Source: Ignavibacteria bacterium | GTDB taxonomy: Bacteria; Bacteroidota; Ignavibacteria; Tepidaquicellales; OLB5 | Direction: 5' to 3' | DNA: 36,488 nucleotides | Assembly (NCBI GenBank): GCA_014879675.1 | Contig: JACSRQ010000175.1 | Coordinates: 1 to 36,488 of the forward strand | Shown here: positions 24,290-36,488 of the stretch, one piece after another | How positions within the stretch are numbered: position 1 is the stretch's first letter | How the letters are laid out: every line of letters starts with the position of its first letter | Translations under genes and position numbers: made by a program | Notes under the pieces: generated by a model | What the model was told of the DNA's origin: nothing | Database searches by the model: none | Seen by the model: the letters and a program-made list of their open reading frames with translations, nothing else

Positions 24290-25252
24290 TCAGTGCGCCA
24301 ACTTGTTAAACGGAAGTTTAACCAAACTGCACTCTATTAATGTATCATTATGTTTTACTGCGTACTCTTTACTGTGATCTAAAAAAATTGTCTTTACAAA
24401 TCCCAAGGCAATGGGTCCGTGTTTTTCTGAAACAATTGCACTGGTAACAAATCCGCACTCCTTGCCTTCAAGTGTTATCTTATCGCCATAAGCGGGCAGA
24501 GTATCTTTTGTGCTTTCAAGCTTAATGCCAACCATATGTTTGCTTATCTTATCATATGCATCCAGCCTTGCAATAACTTCCTGCCCAATGTAGCAGCCCT
24601 TAGTGAAGCTAACATATTTATTCAGGCCGCACTCCAGTGGATTTGTCAGGTCGGTCATTTCTTTGCCAATTTTCGGGATGCCTGATTCAATCCGCATTAC
24701 TTCAAATTGCTCTGGAGAAAATTCTGTAATGCCAAACTCAGATCTATTCTCTTCTGAAAAAATTGCATTTATCCAGAAGTCCCTATCATTTACGCTATAA
24801 GTAAACTCTATTCCGCCGTTAATATCATCGCTTCTGAAAGCGATGGCATCGTGCTCAGAGGTTAAGATGAAACCACTTTCGTTTAACGCTGCAATATCTA
24901 CTCCCGTAAGTTTTGAAATAAACTCCTCCACATTTTCGCCAAAGAACAGAATGGTTTCATGCGTACCGCTTAAATTGGTAATAGTAAAATCATCCATGAT
25001 AGTATATTTATCAAGGTGTGCTGTTACATTTGCCGCATTATTGAAAGAACACTCAACAAAAACAAAATCACCAAAGTTGAAAAGAGTCAAAAGGTCAACG
25101 AACCTGCCCTTATCACTGGTTAAAATAGTTTTTACACCTTTGTAAGATTCAAGGGGTATAACCTGGTTAGTTGAAAGCCTGTTCACGAGGTCAAGCCTGT
25201 CAGTGCCTTCAAACTTTAAATAATCTTTTGGTAACTTATAAAAATTAAGCAT
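24290..25252 (-). CDS. ygfZ: Folate-binding YgfZ-like protein (Fe-S cluster assembly/repair)
   Basis: A 320-aa protein of the GcvT/YgfZ fold. It carries the diagnostic motif KGCYIGQE (around residue 218), with the cysteine needed for YgfZ function, then [18 protein letters not shown]. It lacks glycine-cleavage partners around it, as expected of YgfZ rather than GcvT. YgfZ binds tetrahydrofolate and helps make or repair [4Fe-4S] clusters of some enzymes. The N-terminus [20 protein letters not shown] fits ATG 25252. The predicted promoter ends only eight bases before this ATG, so the message would have almost no leader; no Shine-Dalgarno is present. Confidence 0.92.
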
Positions 25253-25393: not shown

Positions 25394-25501
25394 TTGACCT
25401 CACCCCCTAACCCCCTCTCTTGATAGGAGAGGGGGAACTGAGAAACCCTTGAGTTTTCTCTCCCCTCTCCCTTTGGGAGAGGGGCTGGGGGTGAGGGTCA
25501 A
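25394..25501. repeat. 108-bp GC-rich palindromic element with two inner hairpins
   Basis: An outer stem pairs TTGACCTCACCCCC (25394-25407) with GGGGGTGAGGGTCAA (25487-25501), with one bulged base. Inside are two hairpins. The first is CCCCCTCTC (25411-25419) / GAGAGGGGG (25427-25435) and the second CCCCTCTCCC (25462-25471) / GGGAGAGGGG (25475-25484), both perfect. The three-stem form, high GC and location in an AT-rich gap mark it as a mobile palindromic repeat (REP/MITE-like). Similar CCCTCACCCCCTAACCCC strings are known to me as dispersed repeats in unrelated genomes. It may also work as a bidirectional transcription stop. Confidence 0.8.
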
Positions 25502-34007: not shown

Positions 34008-34553
34008 ATGTTATTAAACAACCACAAATTAAAATTCATCATTGCCTTATTGGTAGTGTTTGCGGTTGGCTATGTATGCAGCTCAAACAAAGACGAAAAG
34101 AAGGAAGACAAGAAAGAAGATACTAAGAAGGAAGATACAAAGAAGGAAGAGACTACAAAAAGCGATGAAAAGAAATCTGACGACACCAAAAAAGAGTCTT
34201 CAGGCAGCGAAGATGTAAGGTTGTATTTCTGCGAAGAGTATAAAGATGGCAAAGAAGTCGGCAAATCAAGTGAGTTCATTATCGGGAAAAACGGCGGTTA
34301 CTTCACCTGTATGATAGATCTCAGGGATAGCGGCAAGAAGATCGGCGTTGGAAAGCTTGAGCTAAGGATCACAAAGCTTGGTAACACCGAGAAGATCATC
34401 GCTACCGAGAAATTTGACGTTCAGCCTGATTGGGATTACATCTTCTTTGATAAATTCCATACATTCTATTCAGCAGGCGATTACAAAGTAACTGCAATGA
34501 AACCGGATGGCACACCTGTAGCTACAGGCGAAGTTAAAATTTCAATGAAATAA
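34008..34553 (+). CDS. Secreted protein with Lys/Glu-rich linker, unknown family, paralog of the next gene
   Basis: A 181-aa protein with an N-terminal hydrophobic segment (FIIALLVVFAVGYVC, residues 10-24). C24 looks lipoprotein-like, but GYVC is a poor lipobox, so it may be anchored by the helix instead. Residues 28-66 are a Lys/Glu/Asp/Thr/Ser low-complexity spacer built on a KKEDT repeat. The C-terminal domain (about 70-181) is a beta-rich module: VRLYFCEEYKDGKEVGKSSE, FIIGKNGGYFT, WDYIFFDKFHTFYSAGDYKV and GEVKI. The same module makes up the next gene. It has a strong Shine-Dalgarno, rare here, and its own promoter and hairpin, suggesting high expression. I recognise no family. Confidence 0.85.
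   Translation: MLLNNHKLKFIIALLVVFAVGYVCSSNKDEKKEDKKEDTKKEDTKKEETTKSDEKKSDDTKKESSGSEDVRLYFCEEYKDGKEVGKSSEFIIGKNGGYFTCMIDLRDSGKKIGVGKLELRITKLGNTEKIIATEKFDVQPDWDYIFFDKFHTFYSAGDYKVTAMKPDGTPVATGEVKISMK
34098..34154 (+). repeat. 15-bp tandem repeat encoding KKEDT units
   Basis: In-frame units at 34110-34124, 34125-34139 and 34140-34154, preceded by a 12-base partial unit at 34098-34109, encode K-K-E-D/E-T. Unit number may vary by slippage, changing spacer length between the membrane segment and the folded domain. Confidence 0.75.
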
Positions 34554-34644: not shown

Positions 34645-35034
34645 ATGTTAAAAAAACTTACAGTTGTTTCTCTGTTCCTCCTGGCTTTGTTTGCTGTAAC
34701 GGGGAACACCAGTTCACAAACTATGTATTTCTGCGAAGGCGTTACCGATGACGGTTACCCGATCACAGAAAGCTCAACATTCAACATCGGTTCAGGCGGC
34801 GGATATGTTTACGCGCTTGTAAGGCTGCCGTATGAAATAGCATGCCGTTCCGTAAGGTTTGAGGTTTACCGCAATGGCGCATACGATAACACGATCTATG
34901 TTGATACCGAAAAGAACTGGGTTTGGTTCTGGAAAAAGATCACATTTTATGATTCAGGCAACTTCACAGTTTATGCTTACGACTGCTTTGATTACCAGCT
35001 TTGCTCAGGCAGTGTAAGGATCAATTTCAGATAG
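34645..35034 (+). CDS. Small secreted protein, unknown family, paralog of the previous gene
   Basis: A 129-aa exported protein: signal peptide MLKKLTVVSLFLLALFAVTG with likely cleavage near residues 22-25. The mature part is almost only the beta-rich module shared with the previous gene: MYFCEGVTDDGYPITESSTF, NIGSGGGYVYALVRL, WVWFWKKITFYDSGNFTVYA and CSGSVRINF. Matching positions include YFCE, the IG..GGY turn, the aromatic W..F.K..FY.(A/S)G strand and the final G.V.I. It has four cysteines in the mature part. AGGAAGG at 34628-34634 precedes ATG 34645, and a strong terminator follows. Function is unknown. Confidence 0.87.
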   Translation: MLKKLTVVSLFLLALFAVTGNTSSQTMYFCEGVTDDGYPITESSTFNIGSGGGYVYALVRLPYEIACRSVRFEVYRNGAYDNTIYVDTEKNWVWFWKKITFYDSGNFTVYAYDCFDYQLCSGSVRINFR

Positions 35035-35164: not shown

Positions 35165-36469
35165 ATGATTGAAAAAATCAAAAGTCTCTCGAAACAAACC
35201 CTGATCTATGGTACCAGTACCATTGTAGGCAGATTTCTCAACTTTATACTCGTCCCTTTTTACACAAATGTATTCCCCCCATCTGAATACGGCGTTGTAG
35301 CGGTAGTTTTCGCGTATATAGCTTTCCTCAACATTGTATATTCATTTGGCTTTGAAGCCGGCTATTTCCGCTTCGCATCCGCTAAAGAAGTTGGCGACGA
35401 AAAACAGAACTTCACGCATCCTTTCATTTTTATTGCCGCAAACAGCCTTGTAATATCCGGGGTGATACTGGCTTTCCACAGCAGCATCGCTGAAATTATC
35501 GGGGTTAAAGATGGCTCAATAATCATCTATTCGGCATTCATCCTTTTCTTCGATGCACTTGCACTCATACCTTTCGCTTATTTACGACTCAAGAATAAAG
35601 CAAAACTGTTCGCTTCTATCAAGCTTGTTAATATCACGGTTAATGTGAGCCTTAACCTGGTGCTGATACTTGTGTTCAGGCTCGGACTTGAAGCGGTGTT
35701 TATAAGTAATCTCGCCGCCAGTATTGTAACGGTGATACTGCTGGTGCCGCATATATTCAGGAATATTTCATTCAGCTATCACAAACAGCTGTTTAATGAG
35801 CTGTGGAAGTTCTCTATTCCATACCTGCCGGCTGCGCTGGCTTCTATGGTGGTGCAGACCTTAAACATTATCATACTCAGATACCTTGTGGATGTAAAGA
35901 CCGTTGGTGTATACAACGCAAACTATAAGCTTGGCATATTTATGATGCTGGTAGTATCGATGTTCGAGTACGCATGGCGGCCGTTCTTTTTGAATAACGC
36001 TAAAGATCCCGGTGCGAAGGCTTTGTTCGCGAAAATACTAACATTGTTTACCGGCGGCGCTTCTGTGGTGCTGATATTCCTGACCTTCACTATACAGGAT
36101 ATTATCAGAATACCGTTGCCATTCCGGAATAAAAGTTATATCATAGGCGCGCAGTATTGGGATGGCGTTGTAATTGTACCGATTGTACTTTTCGCATACC
36201 TGTTCCTCGGCATTTACACAAACCTTATTGCAGGCATATATATTGAAAAGAAAACCAGGTACCTGCCTTTGATAACCGGACTTGGCGCGGTGCTGAATAT
36301 CGCAACGGCGTTTTTACTTATACCTGTGTGGGGAATAGTTGGCGGGGCAATTTCAACGCTGGTAAGCTACGTTGCTATGGCAGCGTATATATATGTAGTT
36401 TCACAGAAATTTTACCCTGTAAAATATGAGATCGGCAAGATCTCCGCAATACTCGGCGTTAACGTATTC
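35165..36469 (+). CDS. Polysaccharide flippase (Wzx/MOP superfamily), 3' end missing
   Basis: At least 435 residues of a MOP-superfamily oligosaccharide flippase, open at the contig end. The N-terminus TLIYGTSTIVGRFLNFILVP, followed by FPPSEYGVVAVVFAYIAFLN, is typical of Polysacc_synt proteins, and about a dozen hydrophobic helices follow (for example FSIPYLPAALASMVVQTLNI, LGAVLNIATAFLLIPVWGIV). Such proteins move lipid-linked glycans across the inner membrane for O-antigen, capsule or exopolysaccharide. The last genomic codon is TTC 36467-36469; the bases after it are adapter and give the false residues LSLIHI. A complete protein would be about 480-500 aa. Confidence 0.92.
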
Positions 36470-36488
36470 CTGTCTCTTATACACATCT
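36470..36488. other. Illumina Nextera/Tn5 mosaic-end adapter at the contig end
   Basis: The final 19 bases, CTGTCTCTTATACACATCT, are identical to the Tn5 mosaic-end sequence used in Nextera tagmentation libraries. They are not genomic and should be trimmed. Confidence 0.97.

Follow-up and report, generated by a model that had tools for sequence, protein, structure and literature searches.

The last 19 bases of the window, which is the whole of contig C253 (36488 bases) in an assembly that totals 3,787,316 bases in 255 contigs, are a leftover of the sequencing kit and not bacterial DNA, and we regard this artefact as confirmed with hardly any room for doubt. They match the Tn5 mosaic end CTGTCTCTTATACACATCT on the forward strand with 0 mismatches, the sole match in the window when up to 3 mismatches were allowed, and because the window is the entire contig they are its final bases. 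None of 100 dinucleotide shuffles of the window gave any match to the 19-mer. The sequence is identical to the Tn5MErev oligonucleotide as printed in PMC4248319. The initial annotation had read the terminal bases as exactly the Tn5 mosaic-end read-through sequence, and the exact match at the contig terminus bears it out. Compared with Illumina Nextera/Nextera XT read-through, no difference was seen: 19/19 bases are alike, sibling contigs add an index and one of the two arms, i5 or i7, and the 68 cuts found in the assembly show the target motif. The window's own adapter end carries no tail and keeps only the 19 bases common to both arms. The significance is one of data quality only; this is an ordinary artefact, with no biological novelty.

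Table 1. Features at the 3' end of contig C253.
Feature	Position	Strand	Remarks
Polysaccharide flippase gene, truncated at its 3' end (435 genuine residues)	35165..36469	+	PF13440/PF01943; relatives 477-479 aa
Last nine genomic bases AACGTATTC, presumed tagmentation target site	36461..36469	+	position implied by adapter
Tn5/Nextera mosaic-end adapter read-through CTGTCTCTTATACACATCT	36470..36488	+	19/19 bases; artefact

The same 19-mer is widespread at the other contig ends of the assembly, where the initial annotation had suggested looking for it. A whole-genome search allowing up to 2 mismatches returned 68 copies, all exact, and the reversed control pattern gave 0 matches in the whole genome. 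Every copy points outward and lies 0-36 bases from a contig end; 26 of them are at distance 0, and 19 have precisely 18 further bases beyond them. The copies are distributed over 64 contigs, 4 of which are marked at both ends. With a 14-base remnant of the 19-mer at the start of C77, which makes one further marked end, 69/510 contig ends are marked (remnants of at least 13 bases covered). No reverse-complementary 9-mer was common to two ends among the 68, so no pair of ends deriving from one insertion event was found.

The bases past the 19-mer were classified for all 68 copies. In 26 there are none, 37 continue into the i5 arm (GACGCTGCCGACGA...), 5 into the i7 arm (CCGAGCCCACGAGA), and 0 into anything else, that is, 42 of the 68 copies have a tail and 42/42 tails fit a Nextera arm. 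The statement that the assembly was not fully adapter-trimmed is upheld by these outward-pointing copies and their tails. Read as reverse complements, the i5 and i7 arms equal portions of the Tn5ME-A and Tn5ME-B oligonucleotides given in PMC4248319. The excess of i5 over i7 tails (37 versus 5, p 4e-7) suggests that read 2 is the source of most traceable tails, if the layout is standard. The 8-base index CGGAGAGA was present in 8/8 tails of at least 22 bases, and longer tails run past it into the start of GTGTAGATCTCGGT. We take CGGAGAGA to be the reverse complement of the Nextera XT index S511, and GTGTAGATCTCGGT is presumably the P5 end. Since one index occurs in all 8 tails that are long enough, such ends could trace the contigs of a metagenome bin to their library and expose contigs from a foreign library; on whether the adapter tails left on contigs mark their provenance in this way, our judgement is evenly balanced. 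A stop exactly after the 19 bases falls where i5 and i7 part, which would be a natural halt for the assembly graph. The 18-base tails end four bases into the index; this peak may reflect how the assembler handles k-mers or forks.

Taken as a set, the genomic side of the junctions fits the target preference of the transposase. The target motif of Nextera XT and DNA Prep is given as 5'-GTNYWRNAC in PMC8224930. The 68 junctions fit on average 3.81 of the 7 motif positions, whereas 79 control positions obtained by shifting averaged 2.62 (sd 0.15, max 3.06); this corresponds to a z of about 8, with the reservation that the shifted positions overlap and are not independent. Among the 68 ends, enrichment was seen at positions -1 (C in 24/68, p 2e-4 for the position), -2 (A in 40/68, p 2e-6), -5 (A/T in 59/68), and -6 (C/T in 48/68); A/G stood at -4 in 44/68. 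The left end of the motif was not significantly enriched in the 68 ends (T at -8 in 24/68, p 0.95; G at -9 in 20/68, p 0.15). The window's own nine bases fit the motif weakly, at 3 of the 7 specified positions, so the motif supports the set of 68 more than the window's own site.

The adapter lies within a reading frame. The ORF starting at 35165 was matched by PF13440 (E 5.9e-17) and PF01943 (E 1.7e-15) in Pfam, which places its product in the polysaccharide-biosynthesis/flippase family, and NCBIfam gave only a sub-threshold HfsF match (46 bits versus a cut-off of 700). The frame stays open through the adapter bases, which are translated as LSLIHI (codons 436-441) and leave 1 spare base. The initial annotation had counted six false residues inside the flippase frame, in agreement with this translation. 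As the terminal 19 bases are adapter, the gene at the contig end is incomplete: flippase residues 1-435 are genuine, and the six apparent residues after them are false. The last gene of C253 should accordingly be annotated as 3'-truncated, with its end at 36469, and LSLIHI left out of the protein. A search of the assembly for the continuation of the gene did not find it: the window itself was the sole good match (E 4.9e-9), and the other three matches had E values of at least 0.18. The flippase end (270 bases) had no match among phages.

Related genomes were compared at the flippase locus, keeping the best 80 of 151 related loci, many of them labelled Ignavibacteria or Bacteroidota. The 19-mer occurred in 0/80 of these loci. 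The seven closest relatives among the loci kept are 72-88% identical to the window in the best segment, and they read on with a different sequence to a stop at 477-479 residues, their gene extending about 42-44 codons past the window's breakpoint. In ungapped comparison, 3-8 of the 19 bases at the junction are equal to the 19-mer in these seven genomes. The case named in advance as speaking against an adapter, the 19 bases inside an intact flippase gene of a related genome, is therefore absent from the 80 loci, and the seven closest differ. Immediately before the junction, 7-11 of 24 bases are identical to the seven relatives (ungapped), and the residues encoded there are similar in kind among the relatives when judged by eye. 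Because these 24 bases are poorly conserved, it is the adapter and not the relatives that sets the boundary at single-base precision.

These comparisons bear on two readings in which the 19 bases would belong to the organism. The flippase gene of this species might happen to contain them by chance, as the reading frame that is open through them would allow. About 3e-5 copies of the 19-mer are expected in a 3.79 Mb genome (equal base frequencies), against 68 found, all at ends, and 7/7 closest relatives differ at the site. Chance was rejected on these two grounds, and its probability is practically negligible. Alternatively, a natural or laboratory Tn5-type transposon end could truly lie within the flippase gene, the 19-mer being described in PMC4248319 as a working Tn5 transposase end. 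A transposon end should not be confined to contig borders, yet none of the 68 copies lies inside continuous genomic DNA; whatever follows the 19-mer is adapter arm, and the relatives kept lack it. The same source reports that in vitro the mosaic end took the place of the wild-type ends, which also argues against a natural element. Given the copies at contig ends only, the adapter arms in all tails, and relatives without the 19-mer, a natural transposon end was rejected, and a Tn5-type end of either origin is extremely unlikely. The Dimer_Tnp_Tn5 domain (PF02281) had no match in the genome and none in 14 control genomes either, so this result says little.

An untrimmed Nextera adapter is, in our judgement, virtually certain to explain the contig end. 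During library making, Tn5 transposase would have cut the DNA at 36469 and attached the 19-base mosaic end. An insert shorter than the read would then have led to read-through into the adapter, which was probably trimmed incompletely, and the assembler would have retained the adapter bases. Past the mosaic end, the sequence should fork into the i5 and i7 arms, which would be common to all fragments. An assembly graph that meets arms of this kind presumably cannot extend, and the contig would end there. The earlier claim that the contig stops for technical reasons was right, although, as the neighbouring contig indicates, the adapter may not be the only cause.

In the relative L041, the sequence downstream of the flippase matches contig C76 of this assembly, and in 7/7 close relatives the window sequence is followed by C76 sequence in conserved order. 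This synteny suggests that the chromosome continues in C76, which probably adjoins C253. The final bases of C76, up to its end at 25102, are precisely the palindrome CCTCTCCTCGAGGAGAGG (C76:25085-25102). The pattern CCTCTCC-N(0-8)-GGAGAGG has 80 sites genome-wide and its reversed control 0; the window holds one copy (25464-25482). The palindrome is possibly a REP-like repeat, dispersed through the genome and interrupting its assembly; if so, it would have broken C76. Among the matches listed, palindromes near contig ends were seen at C17:29, C35:30170-30188 (of 30191), C82:6, and C107:23, as well as at the end of C76.

Since C76 stops at a dispersed palindrome, C253 might have broken near 36469 anyway, in which case the repeat would have stopped the contig nearby and the adapter would be a passenger on a thin end and not the cause. 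Besides the exact end of C76 at one of about 80 such palindromes, two palindromes start 20 and 73 bases past the flippase stop in the relative L032, and the stretch at the flippase end of L041 matches several places in this genome. Against it, the window ends within the gene, about 130 bases or more short of any repeat downstream of the gene, and it ends exactly at the mosaic end; moreover, the patterns used found no palindrome beside the gene end in 6/7 close relatives, L032 being the only exception. We consider this a serious possibility, but one that falls somewhat short of an even chance. No flippase end was found by eye in the three forward frames of the first 330 bases of C76, read in the direction that continues the window. 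As the flippase end was found neither there nor elsewhere in the assembly, a stretch of about 130 bases or more would be absent between C253 and C76, provided that the gene matches that of the relatives in length. The stretch from the gene to C76 differs too much from the relatives to give an exact gap length.

The artefact is not confined to this assembly. Counting the genome studied here, the 19-mer was present in 2/15 genomes of the family and in 3/149 sampled genomes of the class; the other genomes that hold it are G002 (27 copies), G052 (2), and G099 (1). In G052 and G099, each of the three copies sits at a contig end. In G002, 11/12 reverse copies start no more than 6 bases from a contig start, and the twelfth adjoins a run of N; the forward copies number 15, and the one examined for position is at a contig end. 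The run of N is a 10-N scaffold gap beside an adapter remnant in contig C112 of G002 (L155, 22500-23300), with GTACAGAAAC on both sides. The same 10 bases flanking the gap may represent two contigs meeting at a Tn5 cut with its 9-base duplication, although this single case is perhaps a plain overlap.

Public phage and plasmid records show the artefact as well. The mosaic end followed by the i5 arm was present in 26/50,697 phage records, among which some phages recur as RefSeq copies, and the mosaic end with the i7 arm in 9/72,556 plasmid records. Unlike the adapter of C253, which is at a contig end, several of those in the matches listed are internal to the record, some under annotated genes. 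The latter were seen in phage records H5, H7, H15, and H16 (the RefSeq copy of H7) and in plasmid records H22 and H27, and the genes overlapped in phage and plasmid records include tail fibre, terminase, recombinase, replication initiation, and ThiF family genes. A 19-mer screen is cheap and would flag phage and plasmid records with adapter under annotated genes. In the open-licence literature, searched by title and the start of the abstract, no earlier paper on this artefact was found, which is not a claim that it is unpublished.

In the present assembly, the 67 other marked ends need trimming too. To the initial annotation we add the neighbouring contig C76, with the nearby repeat as a possible co-cause of the break, as well as further cases of the artefact in 3 related genomes and among phage and plasmid records. 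Upstream of the flippase gene, the neighbouring ORFs at 34008-34553 and 34645-35034 are diverged copies of each other (28% identity across about 110 residues, E 1e-10). With NCBIfam, the ORF at 34645-35034 had no match and that at 34008-34553 had only sub-threshold matches.
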